From Actinocatenispora rupis (lineage in GTDB: Bacteria > Actinomycetota > Actinomycetes > Mycobacteriales > Micromonosporaceae), in NCBI RefSeq assembly GCF_016861975.1, contig NZ_BOMB01000008.1, forward strand, positions 124,001-188,000: 64,000 nt of DNA. The letters run 5' to 3'. Shown piece by piece: positions 55,067 through 64,000 of the stretch. Within the stretch, counting starts at the first letter, position 1. Each line of letters opens with the position of its first letter. Below the pieces are notes generated by a model, which was not told the origin of the DNA, ran no database searches, and worked only from the letters and a program-made list of their open reading frames with translations. The position numbers and the translations under genes were made by a program.

Positions 55067-57214
55067 TCAGACGCGGAGGTTTCCGCCGGTCTGCACGGAC
55101 TTGCCGTCCGCCGGGACCGAGCGGTCCACGCCGGCCTCCACGTTGCTCGTGTGCAGCAGGTACGACCCGGGGCCGAAACCCTTGTCGGACAAGGCGATCC
55201 GGCCGCCGCTGAACCGGGCGCCGACCGCGCGGTACCGGTTGGTGCCGGCGTCCACGCTGACGTGCGCGGTACCGTCCGGCGCGGTGCTCGCGTAGTCACC
55301 GAGATCCCACGTCACCGTACGGTCGCCACCGGTACGGGACAGCAGCGCCTTCGCCGTGTTCGTACCGGAAACCGTTGCGCCGCCGCCGATCCGCAGCCGC
55401 TGGTCCTTCGCGCCGGCCAGCGAGATGCCCACATTGGACAGTGCGCCGCCCTCGACGAGTACCGCACCCGCGGCGAACGTGGCCGGGTCCGCGTCGTCCG
55501 GCCCGGTGACGACGCAGTCGGTGAACCGCAGTTCGCCCGTACCGCTGAAGGCGTTGCCGGACAGGCCGACCACGCGGCACCGGTCGAAGTGCACCGGGCT
55601 GGTGACGTTCGCCTGGACGATCTCGTTGGCCTTCTGCCCCGGGTAGATGACCTGCGTGGTCGGCGTCGCCGGGATCACGCAGCCGGAGATGACGTTCGGC
55701 CGGGCGGACCGGTTCGACGTCTGCGACACGATGAACGTGTCGCTCGCCTCGCAGCCGCGCATCTGCACGCCGTCCGCGTTCACCCAGATCATGCCGGAGC
55801 CGTCCAGCCCGGCCTTGCCGATGACCTTCACGTCCTCCAGCGTCAGGTCGGTGACCTTCACCCGCGCCACGAACCACGAGCACACGTGCCGGCGTACGGT
55901 GATGCGCTTGGCGGACGAGCCCCACGGGGCGCCGCTGTTCGCGAACGTCATCAGCCCCGAGCACCCGGTGTACACCAGATCGTGCTCGTACTGGCCGTGC
56001 GTGACGAACGGTCCCTGGTCGTCGCCGTCGCCGTGGCAGTTCGTCACGTAGCAGTACGCGCTTGCGGTCCAGTCGTTGAGGTGCCGCGCGTTCGAGGTGT
56101 GGCAGTCCTCGACGTGCCCGTACAGGCAGTAGATCTGCTGGGTCAGGTAGCCGGCGCCGCCGTAGTCGACGGCCGGCGGGTTGGTCAGCGAGCACTGCGA
56201 CGTACGGAAGTGCGTGCACCAGCGTCGCATCACGACCGGCCAGAACGTTGCGGTGCCGTGGATCTGCGACACGTCGCAGCGCACCGCGTACTCGTAGGCG
56301 ACCGGGTGCGAGCCGGACAGCTCGTCGCCGCCCACCCCGACGAACACCATGTTGCGGACGCTGGCGTTCACGACCGGCTCGACCTTGCGCCACGTGAACG
56401 TGCGCCCCGCCGCGAACGCCCAGCCGTTCTGGTAGTTGACGCGCACGTGGGTCTTGTCGACGAGTTCGGTGATCTGCACGAGCTTCTGGAGCTCGCGCTC
56501 CCACGTGGTGTTGAGCAGGTTCACCTCCAGCGCGTACCAGTCGCCGACGGTGAAGGCGCCGGAGTCGGCGACCTGGAACACGTCGGACAGCTCGGCGATC
56601 GCCTCGGTGGTGGTGAAGTCGGTGCCCTTCTCTGCGACCTTCCCGCGGAAGTAGAGCACCGCGCCGAACGGGTTGTCGTGCGTGTTCGGCTCGATTCCCT
56701 TGCTGTGCACGGTGTTGCCGCCGAAGTCCAGCTCGATGTCGCTGCGCGCGAACGTGTGCCGCTTGGCGAAGTTGAGGTCGGTGTGCGCCTCGATCCGGGC
56801 GACCGCAGGGTCGTGCACCATCGCGTCCAGCGCCGCATCCGCGTTCCGGTCCGTACCGAAGATGCCGAAGCGCCGGAAGTCCACGGTACCGTCGTGCAGC
56901 GCCAGCCAGCGTCCCTTGCCGTTGCTCGGCTTCAGCACGGTGCCGCCGTTGTCGTCCACTGTGGACTTCGCCGACCACCGGTACCCGCCGCCGCCACCGT
57001 CGCCGCCCTTGGCGTACCCGCCGACGAGGGCGAGCGTGCCGTCCGCCTCCGGGCCGTACGCCAGCAGGTCGGCCACCGTGTCGAAGCCGTGCACCGCCGC
57101 GCCACCGTCCGGCGCCGCCTGCGCGGTACCGGTGGCCGTCGCGGCGAGCAGCAGCCCGCCGACGCCGGCCGCCCCGGCGAGTACGGCGCGCCGACTCGGT
57201 CTGACCTTCTCCAT
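55067..57214 (-). CDS. Tat-secreted right-handed beta-helix protein (paralogue A)
   Basis: 715 residues from the ATG at 57214. The Tat signal is RPSRRAVLAGAAGVGGLLLA. An N-terminal segment (VADLLAYGPEADGTLALVGGYAKGGDGGGGGYRW) resembles the head domain of phage tailspikes and pectate-lyase-3 proteins. About 450 residues of beta-helix coils follow (VNADGVQMRGCEASDTFIV, RPNVISGCVIPAT, VHFDRCRVVGLSGNAF). A C-terminal beta-rich part resembles a capping or carbohydrate-binding region. The function may be a glycan hydrolase or lyase or an adhesin; no catalytic residues can be assigned. It lies 81 bp after a close paralogue. Confidence 0.85.
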   Translation of the reverse strand: MEKVRPSRRAVLAGAAGVGGLLLAATATGTAQAAPDGGAAVHGFDTVADLLAYGPEADGTLALVGGYAKGGDGGGGGYRWSAKSTVDDNGGTVLKPSNGKGRWLALHDGTVDFRRFGIFGTDRNADAALDAMVHDPAVARIEAHTDLNFAKRHTFARSDIELDFGGNTVHSKGIEPNTHDNPFGAVLYFRGKVAEKGTDFTTTEAIAELSDVFQVADSGAFTVGDWYALEVNLLNTTWERELQKLVQITELVDKTHVRVNYQNGWAFAAGRTFTWRKVEPVVNASVRNMVFVGVGGDELSGSHPVAYEYAVRCDVSQIHGTATFWPVVMRRWCTHFRTSQCSLTNPPAVDYGGAGYLTQQIYCLYGHVEDCHTSNARHLNDWTASAYCYVTNCHGDGDDQGPFVTHGQYEHDLVYTGCSGLMTFANSGAPWGSSAKRITVRRHVCSWFVARVKVTDLTLEDVKVIGKAGLDGSGMIWVNADGVQMRGCEASDTFIVSQTSNRSARPNVISGCVIPATPTTQVIYPGQKANEIVQANVTSPVHFDRCRVVGLSGNAFSGTGELRFTDCVVTGPDDADPATFAAGAVLVEGGALSNVGISLAGAKDQRLRIGGGATVSGTNTAKALLSRTGGDRTVTWDLGDYASTAPDGTAHVSVDAGTNRYRAVGARFSGGRIALSDKGFGPGSYLLHTSNVEAGVDRSVPADGKSVQTGGNLRV

Positions 57215-57295: not shown

Positions 57296-59392
57296 TCAGG
57301 GCGTCAGCGTCGTGCCGGTGTGCACCCGCTCGCCGTCCGGCGGGAAAGCGTGCCGCGCGACGTCGTCCTCCACGCACCCGGCGTGCAGCAGGTACGATCC
57401 GGCGCCGAACGCGGCGGGCGCCAGCGCGAGCGATCCGCCGCTGAACCGCGCTCCGACCGCCGTGTACCGGTTGGTTCCGGCGGACAGCGCGACGTGTGCC
57501 GTGCCGGCCACCGTACGACTGTCGTATGTGGACAGTGCGACGCTCACGGTGCCCGAGCCGGTGCCCCGGGAGACCAGCGCGCCGGTCGCGTTCGTACCGG
57601 AAAGCGTTGCGCCGCCACCGATCGAGAGCCGCTGGTCCCGTGCGGCGGTGAGCACGAACCCGGTGTCGGTGTACGTTCCGCCGCGCACCACCACGTCCCC
57701 CGCGAACGACATCGGCGCGCCCTTCGCCGTCCCCGTCACGGTGCAGTCCGTCAGGTACACGGTGCCGGTGCCGTGGAACTCGAAGCCGCTCGCATCCGGG
57801 AACACGCACCGGTCGAAGTGCACCGGTACGTTCACCGGCGTCTGTACGACCACGTTCGCCGAGGCGGTGTCGAACGTGCAGCCGCTGATGACGTTCGGCC
57901 GGGACGAGCGCGACGACGTCTTCGCCACCGCCAGCGTCCGCCCGACGCAGCCGCGCATCTGGAGCCCGTCCGCGTTCACCACGAACGTGCCGCGCGGGTC
58001 GAACGTGTCGCGCGCGACGACCCGCACGTCCTCCAGCGTCAGGTCGGTGATCCTCGTACTCACGGTCAACCAGGACAGGACGTGCCGCCGGATCGTGAAC
58101 CGCTTCGCCGACTGCCCCCAGTCCGCGCCGCTGTTCGCGATGTCCATCAGCCCCGAACATCCCGTGTACACGATGTCGTGCTCGTACTGGCCGTGCGTGG
58201 TGAACGGGTTCCCGCCGGCGTCGTCGCCGTCCCCGTGGCAGTTCGTCACGTAGCAGTAGCCGGCGTTGACGAAGTCGCACAGGTGCCGCGCGTTCGAGGT
58301 GTGGCAGTCCTCGACGTGCCCGTACAGGCAGTAGATGTTCTGCGTCAGGTAGCCGGCGCCGCCGTAGAAGACGGTCGGCGGGTTCTTCAGGCTGCACCGC
58401 GCGGTGCGGAAGAACGTGCACCAGCGCCGCATCACGACCGGCCAGAACGTCCCCGTCGCCTGGATGTCCGCCACGTCCGCCCGCACCGCGTACTCGAACG
58501 CGACCGGGTGCGATCCCGTGTACTCGTCCGGATCCGGCTTCGGCCAGTCCGACTCCCCGTACTCCGTGAACGGTCCCGAACCGACGAACACCATGTTCCG
58601 TACGGTCACGTCCTGCACCGGCGCGACCCGGGTCCACGTGAACGTCCGGCCCGCCGCGAACCCCCACCCGTTCTGGTAGTTCACGCGGATGTGCGTGCCG
58701 TCCACGATCTCGGTCACCCGCACGAGCTTCTGCAGCTCCCGCTCGTACGTCCCGGCGAGCCGGTTCACCTCCACCGTGTACCAGTCGCCGACGGTGAAGG
58801 CGCCGGAGTCGGCGACCGGGAACACGTCGGACAGCTCGGCGATCGGCTCGGTGGTGGTGACGTCGGTGCCCTTCGCGGCGACGGTGCCGCGGAAGTAGAG
58901 CACCGCGCCGAACGGGTTGTCGTGCGTGTTGCGCTCGATCCCCTCGGTGGTGACGCGGTGCCCGCCGAAGTCCAGGTCGATCCCGCTGCGCCCGAACGTG
59001 TGCCGCCGCGTGAAGTTCAGCGCGGTCCGCGCCACCACCCGGGCCACCGCCGGATCGCGTACCAGGGCGTCGAGCGCGTCGTCCGCCGCCGTGTCCGCGC
59101 CGAACACCCCGAACCGCCGGAAGTCCACGGTCCCGTCGTGCAGCGCGACCCACCGACCCTTTCCCTTGGTACGCAAGGGCTCCAGTACGGTGCCGCCGTT
59201 GCCGTCCGCGCCCGATCCGGCGTCCCACCGGTACGCCCCGCCGCCGCCGTCACCGACCTTCCGGTACCCGCCGACGAGCGCCACCACGCCGTCCGGCGGC
59301 GCCGCGGCGCCGCGAAGTTCCGCCACCGTTCCGTACCGCCGGACCACCTGTCCCACGGCCGCCACCTTCCCCACGCCAGTCCCGCCGACCAC
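57296..59392 (-). CDS. right-handed beta-helix protein without signal peptide (paralogue B)
   Basis: 698 residues from the GTG at 59392. It aligns with paralogue A over nearly its whole length: VALVGGYRKVGDGGGGAYRW, GKGRWVALHDGTVDFRRFGVFG, NTHDNPFGAVLYFRG, FAAGRTFTWTRV and NVISGCTFDTA all have counterparts. Identity looks well above half. It begins at the head domain and has no Tat or Sec signal in this or an adjacent frame, since a stop lies 13 codons upstream in frame. Its C-terminus matches the paralogue's lectin-like end. It is either exported by another route, dependent on a partner, or cytoplasmic. Confidence 0.82.
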   Translation of the reverse strand: MVGGTGVGKVAAVGQVVRRYGTVAELRGAAAPPDGVVALVGGYRKVGDGGGGAYRWDAGSGADGNGGTVLEPLRTKGKGRWVALHDGTVDFRRFGVFGADTAADDALDALVRDPAVARVVARTALNFTRRHTFGRSGIDLDFGGHRVTTEGIERNTHDNPFGAVLYFRGTVAAKGTDVTTTEPIAELSDVFPVADSGAFTVGDWYTVEVNRLAGTYERELQKLVRVTEIVDGTHIRVNYQNGWGFAAGRTFTWTRVAPVQDVTVRNMVFVGSGPFTEYGESDWPKPDPDEYTGSHPVAFEYAVRADVADIQATGTFWPVVMRRWCTFFRTARCSLKNPPTVFYGGAGYLTQNIYCLYGHVEDCHTSNARHLCDFVNAGYCYVTNCHGDGDDAGGNPFTTHGQYEHDIVYTGCSGLMDIANSGADWGQSAKRFTIRRHVLSWLTVSTRITDLTLEDVRVVARDTFDPRGTFVVNADGLQMRGCVGRTLAVAKTSSRSSRPNVISGCTFDTASANVVVQTPVNVPVHFDRCVFPDASGFEFHGTGTVYLTDCTVTGTAKGAPMSFAGDVVVRGGTYTDTGFVLTAARDQRLSIGGGATLSGTNATGALVSRGTGSGTVSVALSTYDSRTVAGTAHVALSAGTNRYTAVGARFSGGSLALAPAAFGAGSYLLHAGCVEDDVARHAFPPDGERVHTGTTLTP

Positions 59393-59823: not shown

Positions 59824-60030
59824 ATGCCCGTCACCGAGATCGTCCGTGCCTGGACGGACACCGACTTCCGCGCGACGCTCGCGTCGCACGAGCGGGAGTA
59901 CGCCCTCGACCACCCGTCCGGCTCCATCGGCGCCGAGCTGGACCAGATCCTCGGCATCTTCGACCCGGACAGTACGAGCACGAGCAGCGCCGGGTGCAGC
60001 CAGTGGAGCGGCGGCCTCTGCTGCTGCTGA
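59824..60030 (+). CDS. lanA: class II lanthipeptide precursor, mersacidin/lichenicidin-type leader
   Basis: 68 residues from the ATG at 59824 with AAAGGGGAC upstream. The leader (VTEIVRAWTDTDFRATLASH, then HPSGSIGAELDQILG) is close to the mersacidin/lichenicidin leader pattern: E-I-(I/V)-R-A-W-x-D near the start, a (N/H)P-(A/S)-G motif in the middle, and E-L-x-x-(I/V)-x-G at the end. The core would be within FDPDSTSTSSAGCSQWSGG followed by LCCC. It has up to eight Ser/Thr and four Cys, three of them consecutive at the C-terminus. The cleavage site is not a clear GG, so it is uncertain. LanM follows 53 bp later. The product should be a ring-rich antimicrobial or signalling peptide. Confidence 0.88.
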   Translation: MPVTEIVRAWTDTDFRATLASHEREYALDHPSGSIGAELDQILGIFDPDSTSTSSAGCSQWSGGLCCC

Positions 60031-60083
60031 CCGAGAGGGTGCCGGGCGGATCCGTCCGGCACCCGAGCCGAGGAGGACCGCGC

Positions 60084-63000
60084 ATGCCCGCTGCCCCGAC
60101 CCGCGCCGCGTCCCTCGCGGAGCGCCGCCGTACGCCCGGCCCGGACCGTGCCACCGCCAGCGCCGACAACGCCGCCCCGGGGATCGCCGTAGCCGCAACG
60201 GATTCCCGGTCGGAGAAGGCCGCGCGCCGGCTGGACCGGTGGCGCGCGCAACCCCCGTTCGACACGTACTGGGCGGAACGGTTGCGCGCCGACGCCCTCA
60301 CCGAGGAGGAGCTGCGCGCGCTGCTCGCCGAACCGGACGAGGCGCTCGCCGCCCGGCTCGGCGACCCCGGGTGGGTGCGGGACCTGGCCGCCGCGTACGA
60401 GGAGGAGCCGCCGCCGCAGTCGGACGAGCCGCTCACTCCGATCCTCGATCCGGTACTCGCCCGGGCACGCGCCCGGCTGGCGACCGAACTGTCCGATGTG
60501 GACGGTGCCGGGAGGTACGTGGAGCTGCTGTACCCGCCGCTGCCGCACCAGCTCAACCACGTGGTGACGCGCTGCCTGGTACTGGAGCTGAACATCGCGC
60601 GGCTGCTCGACGACCTGCCGGGGGAGACACCGGAGGAACGCTTCGCCGCGTTCCGGGTACGGCTGCGCGACCCGGCGTACCGGCGGCACCTGCTGGGAGA
60701 GTACCCGGTGCTGTTCCGGCTGGCGGCGACGATCGCGGACCAGTGGGTGACGACGAGCGCCACGTTCGTGCGGCGGCTGCTGGCGGACCGCGCCGACCTG
60801 ACCCGCACGTTCGGCGAACTCGGTGCCGTGACGGCGATCCGGACCGGGCTGGGCGACGCGCACCGCGGCGGGCAGACGGTGTCCACAGTGGACTTCGCGG
60901 GCGGGGTGACGCTGGTGTACAAGCCGCGGCCGGTCGCCGTGGACGTGCACTTCCAGGACCTGCTGCGCTGGCTGGACCGTACCGGCGCCACGCCGGGCTT
61001 CCGCACGCTGACCTACCTGGACCGCGGCACGTACGGCTGGTCGGAGTTCGTCCGGCCGGCGCCGGCGAGCGGACCCGACGGGCTGCACCGCTTCTACCAC
61101 CGGCAGGGTGGGCTGCTCGCGCTGCTACATGTGTTGTGCGCCAACGACTTCCACGCCGAGAACCTGATCGCCGCCGGCGAGCACCCCGTCCTCATCGACC
61201 TGGAGTCGCTGATCCAACCCGACCTCCTGGTACGCGCGGACGGCGCGCCCGAGGCCGAACTCCTCGCCGTCAACGCCGCGGCCGCCTCCGTACTCCGGAT
61301 CGGGTTGCTGCCGTTCCAGGCGTGGCAGACCGCGTCCGGCAGCAGCGTCGACGTGAGCGGGTTGGGCGGCGGCGCCGGGGACCGCCTCACCCCGATCGCC
61401 CTGCCGTACCTGGCGGAGGAGGGCACCGACCGGATGAGCGTGCGGCTCCGCCGGCAGACGATGGGCCGCCCCGCCAACCGCCCCGTCGACGACGGAACCA
61501 CACTCCGGGTACTCGACTACGCCGACGACATCGTCGCCGGCTTCACCGAGGTGTACCAGGTGTGCGCGGAGCGGCGGGACGACCTTCTCGCGCCCGGCGG
61601 CCCGGTCACCGCGTTCACCGGCGACGAGGTGCGCGTCATCCTGCGCGCCACCATGCAGTACGAGATGCTGCGGCACACCGCGTACCACCCGGACGTGCTG
61701 CGCGACGGGCTGGAACTCGACCGGCACCTCGACCGGTTGTGGAAGGACGTGGCGCGGCGGCCCGCGCTCGCCGCGGCCGTCGAGCACGAGCGCGCCGACC
61801 TGTGGCGGCACGACATCCCCGTGTTCACCGCCCGTACCGACGAGACGGACCTGCGCGCGTCCACCGGCGCGCCGCTGCCCGGCCTCGTCGGCGCCAGCGG
61901 CCTCGCGAACGTCACCGCACGGCTGCGCGGACTCGGCCCCGACGACCTCGCCCGGCAACGCTGGCTCATCCGCGGCGCGCTCGCCACCACCGCCGTCGAC
62001 GTCCGCGGCGTCGAGTACCCCGGGTACCGGCCGCCGCCGCTGCGGGCCGACGCCGCACCCGACCGGCTCGTGGCGCACGCCGACCGGATCGGCCGGTACC
62101 TCGCCGGCATCGCGTACCGGAGCGACGGGGCGGCGGAATGGCTTGGCGTGCAGTCGAACCAGGGCGAGAACTGGTCGCTCAGCCCGCTCGGCGCCGACCT
62201 CTTCCACGGGCTGTCCGGCATCGCGCTGTTCCTCGCCCACCTCGGCGCCACCACCGGCGAGCGCGCGCACACCGCGCTCGCCCGCGACGCGTTCGCCACC
62301 GCACGCTCCCAGGTCGCGCGGGACATGGTCGGCAAGGTCGGCGGCATGGCCGGGCTCGGCGGCCTCGTGTACGCCGCCACCCACCTCGGCGTCCTCTGGG
62401 ACGACCCCGGCCTGCTCGACTACGCCGCCTCGCTCGTACCGGCGATCGCCGCCGACGCCGCCCGCGACACCCGGTACGACTTCGTCGCCGGATCGGCCGG
62501 CTCCATCGCCGGACTCGCCGCCCTCGCCGCCGTACGCCCCGGCGGTGCGCTCACGGACGCGCTCGCCGCCTGCGCCGACGCGCTCGTCCGCGGCGCCCGG
62601 CCCGCGGGCTCGGGCGCCGCCTGGCTCGGCACCGTCATGGTCGAGGAACGCGTCGCCGACGTACCGATGGCGGGCGTCTCGCACGGCGCCGCCGGCATCG
62701 TCTGGCCCCTCCTGCTCGCCGCCGGCACCCTCGGCGACACCCGCTGCACCGACACCGCGCGCGCCGGCCTCGCGTACGAGCGGGACCTGTTCCTGCCCGC
62801 CGCCGGCAACTGGCAGGACGTCCGCCGCGGCGGCAGCGGACCGGGCGGCACCCTCGTCGCGTGGTGCGCCGGCGCCGCCGGGATCGGCATCTCGCGGCTG
62901 CTCTCCCTGCCCCACCTCGACACCCCCGACGTACGCGCGGACCTCGACACCGCCCTCGACACCACCCGCCGCCGCGGCTTCGGCATGAACCACTCCCTCT

Positions 63001-63269
63001 GCCACGGCGACCTCGGCAACCTCGACCTGCTGCTCCTCGCCGCCGACCGGCTCCACCGCGCGGACCTCGCCGCCGAAGTACGGCTGCGGGCCGGATCCGT
63101 CCTCGACTCCATCGACGCGGACGGCTGGATCTGCGGCGTACCAACGGGAGTGGAGGCACCCGGGCTGATGACCGGGCTCGCCGGCACCGGGCTGCAACTG
63201 CTGCGCCTCGCCGACCCGACCCGGATCCCTTCCGTGCTCGCCTTCGAACCCCCGCGCCTCGCTCCATAG
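60084..63269 (+). CDS. lanM: class II lanthipeptide synthetase LanM
   Basis: 1061 residues, the normal size, from the ATG at 60084 with GAGGAGGA upstream. The N-terminal dehydratase (kinase-like) region shows LVYKPRPVAVDVHFQDLL, CANDFHAENLIAAGEHPVLIDLES and the LanM motif LPYLAEEGTD. The C-terminal LanC-like cyclase carries the Zn ligands in VAWCAGAAGIGISR and SLCHGDLGNLDLL. It should phosphorylate then eliminate Ser/Thr of the precursor and join Cys to form lanthionine rings. The N-terminal 55 residues are an unusual Ala/Arg extension. A small hairpin follows at 63281. No LanT transporter/protease lies within the window. Confidence 0.97.
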   Translation: MPAAPTRAASLAERRRTPGPDRATASADNAAPGIAVAATDSRSEKAARRLDRWRAQPPFDTYWAERLRADALTEEELRALLAEPDEALAARLGDPGWVRDLAAAYEEEPPPQSDEPLTPILDPVLARARARLATELSDVDGAGRYVELLYPPLPHQLNHVVTRCLVLELNIARLLDDLPGETPEERFAAFRVRLRDPAYRRHLLGEYPVLFRLAATIADQWVTTSATFVRRLLADRADLTRTFGELGAVTAIRTGLGDAHRGGQTVSTVDFAGGVTLVYKPRPVAVDVHFQDLLRWLDRTGATPGFRTLTYLDRGTYGWSEFVRPAPASGPDGLHRFYHRQGGLLALLHVLCANDFHAENLIAAGEHPVLIDLESLIQPDLLVRADGAPEAELLAVNAAAASVLRIGLLPFQAWQTASGSSVDVSGLGGGAGDRLTPIALPYLAEEGTDRMSVRLRRQTMGRPANRPVDDGTTLRVLDYADDIVAGFTEVYQVCAERRDDLLAPGGPVTAFTGDEVRVILRATMQYEMLRHTAYHPDVLRDGLELDRHLDRLWKDVARRPALAAAVEHERADLWRHDIPVFTARTDETDLRASTGAPLPGLVGASGLANVTARLRGLGPDDLARQRWLIRGALATTAVDVRGVEYPGYRPPPLRADAAPDRLVAHADRIGRYLAGIAYRSDGAAEWLGVQSNQGENWSLSPLGADLFHGLSGIALFLAHLGATTGERAHTALARDAFATARSQVARDMVGKVGGMAGLGGLVYAATHLGVLWDDPGLLDYAASLVPAIAADAARDTRYDFVAGSAGSIAGLAALAAVRPGGALTDALAACADALVRGARPAGSGAAWLGTVMVEERVADVPMAGVSHGAAGIVWPLLLAAGTLGDTRCTDTARAGLAYERDLFLPAAGNWQDVRRGGSGPGGTLVAWCAGAAGIGISRLLSLPHLDTPDVRADLDTALDTTRRRGFGMNHSLCHGDLGNLDLLLLAADRLHRADLAAEVRLRAGSVLDSIDADGWICGVPTGVEAPGLMTGLAGTGLQLLRLADPTRIPSVLAFEPPRLAP

Positions 63270-63324: not shown

Positions 63325-64000
63325 TCAGCCGTCGGCGAGGGCCGTCGCCCGCTCCCGGCGGCGTGCCGCGGCGGCCGGATGCCCTGCGGCGTCGAGGATG
63401 TCGGCGAGCCGGCGCAGCGCCTCGGCCTCGCCGAGCCGGTGCCCGACGTCGCGACAGGTGACGACGGCGCGGCGGAGCCAGCCGACCGCGGGGCCGGTGT
63501 CGCCGGCGCGGTACCGCGCCCAGCCGAGGTTGATCATGACGAGTCCGGCGAGGTGGTGCCGGTCGAGCCGGCGCGCCAGGTCGAGCGCCTCCTCGTGGCA
63601 GCGCACGGCCCGCTTGGTGTCACCCAGATCCAGGTACACCAGGCCGATGTTGTCGAGCGTCGAGCTGGCCTTCACCTCGTCGCCCAGCCGGCGCCGGATG
63701 GCCAGGCTGGTACGCAGGCAGGTGAGCGCCGCCGTCGGCCGTCCGGTACGGCGGTGCGCCAGCCCGAGGTTGTTCCACGCGCCGGCGGCACCGCCCTCGT
63801 CGTCGAGCGTCCGGTACAGGTCGAGGCTGCGGCGCAGGCAGTCGACGGCCGAGGCGTCGTCGCCCTGCCGCAGGTACGCGGCGCCCAGCCGGCTCAGCGC
63901 CGTCGCCTCCGCACCCCGGTCCCCGGTACGCCGGGCCGCGTCGAGCACGAGGTGGCCGACGGCTTCGGCTTCCCCGTCGTACCCCCAGACGGTGAGGTAG
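63325..64000 (-). CDS. tetratricopeptide-repeat protein, C-terminal part (AfsR/SARP-like regulator; 5' end outside window)
   Basis: At least 225 residues; the frame is open to the window edge. Five to six TPR units of about 40 residues are visible (ALSRLGAAYLRQGDDASAVDCLRRSLDLYR, AWNNLGLAHRRTGRPTAALTCLRTSLAIRR, TLDNIGLVYLDLGDTKRAVRCHEEALDLAR). This repeat type ends AfsR/SARP regulators with NB-ARC ATPases in actinobacteria. It converges on the lanthipeptide genes, so it may be the pathway regulator. The DNA-binding end cannot be seen. Confidence 0.75.
   Translation of the reverse strand, partial: YLTVWGYDGEAEAVGHLVLDAARRTGDRGAEATALSRLGAAYLRQGDDASAVDCLRRSLDLYRTLDDEGGAAGAWNNLGLAHRRTGRPTAALTCLRTSLAIRRRLGDEVKASSTLDNIGLVYLDLGDTKRAVRCHEEALDLARRLDRHHLAGLVMINLGWARYRAGDTGPAVGWLRRAVVTCRDVGHRLGEAEALRRLADILDAAGHPAAAARRRERATALADG

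Follow-up and report, generated by a model that had tools for sequence, protein, structure and literature searches.

A putative class II lanthipeptide locus with a conserved CCC-ending core in Actinocatenispora rupis

The lanA and lanM genes

The stretch analysed, here called the window, comprises 64,000 nucleotides of Actinocatenispora rupis (G000:C8:124001-188000) within an assembly of 7.8 Mb and 81 contigs. Towards its end it carries lanA (59824-60030, + strand), encoding a precursor of 68 amino acids (MPVTEIVRAWTDTDFRATLASHEREYALDHPSGSIGAELDQILGIFDPDSTSTSSAGCSQWSGGLCCC), which lies 53 bases upstream of lanM (60084-63269, + strand), encoding a class II lanthipeptide synthetase of 1061 amino acids. 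The precursor consists of a leader of about residues 1-48 and a core region of about residues 49-68 (DSTSTSSAGCSQWSGGLCCC), the cleavage site being approximate. It ends in CSQWSGGLCCC and has four cysteines (Cys) in the core. The guanine plus cytosine (GC) content at the codon positions of lanA is 0.57/0.57/0.97, and lanA is the only one of 618 stop-to-stop frames of at least 40 amino acids in the window to end in CCC. A chance or mis-called frame was ruled out, because homologues in other genomes stop in frame at the same CCC.

The first-pass annotation had covered 59824-63269, which corresponds to lanA and lanM, and had proposed a class II LanA–LanM pair with a mersacidin/lichenicidin-type leader and a complete cyclase zinc site. 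Family matches and alignments of the two proteins supported all of this. The leader passed the model for mersacidin/lichenicidin type 2 lantibiotic leaders (TIGR03898) with 26.0 bits against a cut-off of 23.5, and in the precursor alignment (A4) the model matched all nine members at an expect value (E) of 0.1, the member from genome G007 falling under the cut-off with 21.4 bits. A resemblance of the leader to nitrile hydratase (E 0.2-0.3) was rejected; it is in keeping with the NHLP-type likeness known for such leaders.

LanM matched TIGR03897 with 862 bits, DUF4135 with 401 bits and LANC_like with 197 bits, and fell far short of the class III model (42.5 bits, cut-off 575) and the class IV model (77.2 bits, cut-off 650). 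The solved structures matching it were LicM2 (6st5, 380 bits) and CylM (5dzt, 136 bits). Residues K280, D355, H357, N360 and D372 align with the dehydratase positions of CylM, and C928, C973 and H974 with the zinc ligands (Cys/Cys/His) of LicM2, the second zinc site carrying the motif CHG. Their catalytic and zinc-binding roles are assigned from work on CylM and NisC. The gene is open over its 1061 codons, with GC contents of 0.79/0.55/0.90 by frame position and thus a strong third position. The locus accordingly has the parts by which class II is recognised, namely a single LanM with a DUF4135-type dehydratase and a LANC cyclase, intact dehydratase and zinc residues, and an adjacent precursor with a leader and a core of serine (Ser), threonine (Thr) and Cys.

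A family of CCC-ending precursors

Eight distinct precursors ending in CCC were found in six genomes, each adjoining a LanM. The window, G007, G048, G390 and Nonomuraea deserti have one precursor each and G391 has three in tandem. G390 is Stackebrandtia albiflava DSM 45044 and G391 Candidatus Stackebrandtia excrementipullorum, and G007 and G048 share their genus group (g5). The core regions of the G007, G048, G390 and G391 precursors are PTTGCTKWSGSPNCCC, QSTNCTKWTGSPNCCC, VSSDCTKWSGPQPGGRCCC, DTTHCTQWSYVPQRVCCC, VSTQCTQQSIANVRMCCC and VSTACTKWSGLTPPRRCCC, and that of the Nonomuraea deserti precursor is SLTTCGTGATLYSGGGPACCC. Upstream of the tail, C[ST]xx[ST] is present in seven of the eight cores, the exception being Nonomuraea. 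The three tandem precursors of G391 (L046, from 8252) stand before one LanM and have near-identical leaders, followed by three different CCC cores. A relative in genome G038 ends in CCAC. Altogether 31 distinct precursors were found by motif beside the collected LanMs; apart from the eight ending in CCC, none of the other 23 contains CCC.

The core had been described as unlike the known ones. This was confirmed, but its conservation in other species had been missed, and since the CCC core is kept in other species the precursors form a family instead of one odd peptide. The window precursor shows the features by which the subfamily is defined here: a C-terminal CCC, four core Cys and a LanM of the CCC group. 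The CCC peptides are best read, from the sequences compared, as an uncharacterised subfamily within the class II lanthipeptides.

The precursor of Actinomadura sp. HBU206391 (L052:7806-8132) has the NPAGDLDAELREL half of the leader and no RAWTD half, its core ends in RICCFKVGS, and its LanM lies near the CCC group.

Phylogeny of LanM

A maximum-likelihood tree was constructed of 43 of the 45 LanM rows. Two that duplicated enzymes of the window genome were dropped, and the set contained no split or short LanMs. Rows without a motif-found precursor were scored as "other", so a CCC precursor lacking that motif would escape. The six CCC LanMs grouped together among the 43 (support 85/58, one change) and did so in 83% of 200 bootstrap trees, and none of 500 label shuffles was as low as the CCC grouping. 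The five CCC LanMs other than that of the window were joined with support of 100/100. Neighbours of the CCC group were the LanMs of G038 (CCAC) and Actinomadura (CC), with 95/91 for the eight enzymes. Next outside these came a group made up of the window genome's second LanM (contig 10), the LanMs of two strains of its genus and a LanM of G064, which belongs to the same order; the cores at these loci are different. Membership of the window LanM in the CCC group is likely, though not firm on the enzyme alone, and the peptide adds to it.

The second LanM locus of the window genome (G000:C10:74198-77221, - strand; L016:13314-13502, - strand) has its own short precursor, which ends in NTCESYSSCYHLCSAW. 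One same-genus LanM (G003:C1:915247-918533, + strand) gave matches in several overlapping frames and looks disrupted or mis-assembled.

Distribution

The short-profile genome searches scored the best 15-17 candidates per genome and their counts are thus lower bounds. Profiles also picked up precursors that have the leader type in common but a different core, such as that of G901 (E 8.8e-12), which has a GG leader. When 101 genomes were searched with the single precursor, four besides the window's own yielded relatives, the one in G017 having a different core; a profile run against 354 genomes of the family to which the window belongs added G390 and G391. In the latter search 32 of the 354 genomes matched at E 0.01, most of them sharing the leader type only; a CCC precursor was present in at least five, and one further genome had the CCAC variant. 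The searches of the order and the class were even draws of genomes. Nine of 397 genomes matched at E 1e-4 in the order, the window genome and G007 alone giving full-length and strong matches, and four of 394 matched in the class, with the CCC end in the window genome and G793 and other cores in G901 and G706. G793 and N. deserti encode one and the same peptide.

An alignment-based contig scan, which brought in the Nonomuraea deserti precursor, accepted five loci among 19 stretches: three with CCC, the Actinomadura locus with CC, and one from Zoogloea (L051), which looks spurious and was not used. No relative was found in 275 stretches of a contig scan with the single precursor, the plasmid search with the G007 precursor gave no match, and three genomes of the same genus were searched without a CCC precursor being found. 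By these counts the CCC locus is rare and accessory.

Leader cleavage

The window precursor has GS at 33-34 and GA at 36-37 inside the leader and its single GG at 63-64 inside the core, and none of GG, GA or GS at the border of leader and core. This bore out the earlier statement that a clear GG site is missing. The accompanying statement that the window has no LanT was extended to the whole genome: no C39 (LanT) peptidase was detected across the window's assembly (0/1 genome, 96.8% complete), while the control search was positive in 8 of 14 named genomes. Both marks of a lanthipeptide processed by a C39 LanT are thus missing, and because of this the leader would have to be removed by another protease. 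Unlinked proteases have been described for leader removal in class III and IV peptides (PMC10885120, as far as its text was available). The CCC loci supply further cases for studying how class II leaders that lack a GG site are cut off.

Ring prediction

In a published rule, the Cys are taken in turn from the C-terminus, and each is joined to the closest upstream Ser/Thr that is still free and stands three or more residues away, a procedure that reproduced 92 of 100 known patterns (PMC11251773, accessible part). The rule was applied by script with the labionin step left out, to cores cut by eye at approximate cleavage sites. It predicted four thioether rings in all eight CCC cores, with three to four crossings; in each core every Cys has an eligible upstream Ser/Thr. 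The window core and the three G391 cores (a, b and c) gave the pattern SSCSSCCC with four crossings, and those of G007, G048, S. albiflava and N. deserti the pattern SCSSSCCC with three. In the window the predicted rings are S54-C58, S55-C66, S59-C67 and S62-C68. These rings serve as a guide only, because nested rings are beyond the rule and, as its authors caution, it may perform less well on complex peptides (same source, in the part available). Counted from its EA segment, the core of G391b offers four Ser/Thr, exactly one for each of its four Cys, which favours full use.

The first-pass annotation had held that the topology must be unusual, which was too strong. Overlap or nesting is forced if all four Cys become thioethers, and that part stands; but lanthipeptides with overlapping rings have been described (PMC11251773, in part), and Cys may stay free or form a disulfide such as that reported in the actinobacterial class II peptide roseocin alpha (PMC10027976, in part).

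Regulator and exporter genes

Convergent behind lanM lies the 3' part of a gene for a SARP-type regulator of 915 amino acids (63325-64000, - strand), which reaches 66072 beyond the window (L006:4326-7073) and may also belong to the locus. The protein has a BTAD domain (Pfam, 117.6 bits), an AAA/NB-ARC domain at or just under the cut-off, and TPR. It is 31-32% identical to the SARP genes beside lanA in four loci of the Stackebrandtia group. Its link with lanAM is weak, since higher values (37-43%, over shorter stretches) are given by SARPs from loci whose cores differ.

In all four Stackebrandtia-group loci lanM is accompanied by genes for a divergent SARP-type regulator and an ABC exporter and by lanA, of which there are one to three copies. 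The exporters are 71-73% identical to that of G007, and Pfam found no C39 domain in the two tested (G007 and S. albiflava). In three of the four loci (L047, L046 and L014) a BBE-type FAD (flavin adenine dinucleotide) oxidoreductase follows the exporter and could tailor the peptide. In the stretches of N. deserti, G038 and Actinomadura, neither a SARP nor an exporter was matched at E 1e-15. Elsewhere in the window's genome, the five best-scoring homologues of the exporter are 33-36% identical to it.

Interpretation and alternative explanations

The locus very probably makes a class II lanthipeptide of the uncharacterised CCC-ending subfamily with up to four rings, as far as comparison of genes and proteins can tell. 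LanM would bind the mersacidin-type leader and then phosphorylate and dehydrate Ser/Thr of the core, after which the four Cys thiols would be joined to the dehydro-residues at its zinc site, closing up to four (methyl)lanthionine rings. The first Cys would form a ring with a Ser/Thr three or four residues upstream, and the CCC tail would form three rings back to upstream Ser/Thr, the tail rings crossing. As no border GG and no C39 transporter were detected, the leader is proposed to be removed, probably, by an unlinked host protease, and the product would probably leave through an unlinked exporter. The SARP regulator may control the expression of lanAM. An antibacterial role is a guess by class, with about even chances of being correct. 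It is tentatively possible, although the balance leans against it, that the peptide is a new scaffold, in which three rings from consecutive Cys cross each other and, where the rule predicts so (four of the eight cores), cross the N-terminal ring as well; this would be a knotted globular peptide of undescribed topology with a new target and C39-free maturation.

Some observations weigh against the CCC-lanthipeptide interpretation. The spacing [ST][ST]xC[ST] is found in six of the eight CCC cores, the window and Nonomuraea being without it, and the window LanM joins the other CCC LanMs with support of 85/58 only. The first zinc Cys stands in WCAG in the window, against WCHG in LicM2 and in at least two relatives (Candidatus S. 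excrementipullorum and Actinomadura), and cyclase activity may be reduced. In addition, an exporter of the Stackebrandtia-group type and the oxidase are both absent beside the window genes. The last two points would also fit a decaying window copy, which has lost its exporter and makes no product despite an intact LanM. The exporter is present in all four and the oxidase in three of the four Stackebrandtia-group loci, the best five exporter homologues elsewhere in the genome are distant, and the three same-genus genomes yielded no CCC precursor. Decay is nevertheless improbable: lanM is open throughout, has strong third-position GC and retains its catalytic residues; neither the four Cys nor the CCC end of the precursor has been lost; and N. 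deserti and G038 likewise show no linked exporter of the Stackebrandtia-group type.

The main rival is that thioethers are formed only in part, two of the three tail Cys being in a disulfide or free for redox switching or metal binding. Roseocin alpha has an indispensable disulfide besides its four rings (PMC10027976, in the part available), and three adjacent thiols appear sterically awkward for three thioethers. This explanation seems rather unlikely when set against the eligible Ser/Thr available to every Cys in all eight cores and the exact match of four to four in G391b. No thiol-disulfide enzyme was noticed near the genes when the frame lists were read by eye, although about 7 kb away from the precursor of N. 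deserti there is a frame that we take to be TlpA-like. The peptide might also be half of a two-peptide lantibiotic with its partner encoded elsewhere, for example at the second LanM locus on contig 10, since TIGR03898 includes two-peptide systems and that LanM has its own short precursor. Each precursor, however, stands beside its own LanM, the two LanMs fall in different clades, and a motif scan over stretches covering about window positions 42000-79000 found no second precursor near lanA, making this quite improbable. Still further down in probability, the tail might form a labionin-like carbacycle, a triple link whose motif is described in PMC7268733 and PMC11251773 (both in part). The segment SQWSGGLC fits the class III motif Sx2Sx3C, the strict motif is found at two places in the window core, and the broad form [ST]xx[ST]x(3-8)CC is present in all eight CCC cores and absent in G038. 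The strict Ser-Ser form, however, is found in the window only, one of nine precursors tested, and the enzyme is a LanM far under the class III cut-off. To our knowledge, labionin formation by a LanM has no precedent.

Comparison with known systems

Among the closest known systems is the mersacidin/lichenicidin family (TIGR03898), with which the CCC peptides share the leader type, a LanM with DUF4135 and LANC domains, and CHG at the second zinc site. They differ from it in the C-terminal CCC, in having no GG or GA at the border and no detected C39 LanT, and in that none of the eight precursors contains CTxTxEC, the core motif of mersacidin-type lipid II binders. Peptides of the geobacillin I/nisin type are made by class I enzymes and are not known to have three Cys in a row. 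The likeness to them lies in thioether rings crossing near the C-terminus, as in the bridging code of geobacillin I (PMC11251773, available part). The roseocin family of Streptomyces, modified by RosM, is likewise actinobacterial and class II, with leaders of the NHLP/TIGR03898 type and a CHG-type LanM (PMC10027976, in part); it differs in being a two-peptide system with one promiscuous LanM. The string CCC is absent from the main text of that paper.

Literature searches by title and start of abstract found no description of a CCC family, nor any work on these class II loci among papers on Stackebrandtia lanthipeptides or lantibiotics, and searches for the core letters, for three consecutive Cys in lanthipeptides and for SARP with LanM gave no mention. 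The family is likely to be listed, perhaps under a number instead of a name, among the supplementary families of PMC7268733, as these and most subscription journals lay outside the search.

Ring patterns set the target and stability of lanthipeptides, and the retention of the CCC end in six genomes, including Glycomycetaceae and Streptosporangiaceae by their NCBI labels, suggests a selected topology. We know of no characterised peptide with such a CCC topology. The conserved subfamily adds something new and testable, if modest, to a much-studied field. The system is small, with one peptide and one enzyme, and is present in named strains (S. albiflava DSM 45044 and N. deserti KC310), and the Candidatus S. 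excrementipullorum cores are natural variants with four or five Ser/Thr per four Cys, which makes the ring assignment directly testable.

Other features of the locus

An inverted repeat lies between lanA and lanM (60037-60064, + strand), its arms of 14 nucleotides being 93% complementary and forming a 12-bp stem with a 4-nucleotide loop in the RNA fold. The fold of 60028-60083 has an energy of -29.0 kcal/mol (z -2.36), and 7 of 200 shuffles folded equally well or better. The hairpin possibly damps read-through into lanM. It is not common to all loci, because the gap between lanA and lanM in G048 is 21 bases and too short for it.

Adjoining lanA on the opposite strand are two tandem paralogues (55067-57214 and 57296-59392, both - strand). 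The product next to lanA, of 698 amino acids, had no Pfam match at E 0.001; it is 63% identical to the other, which has 715 amino acids.

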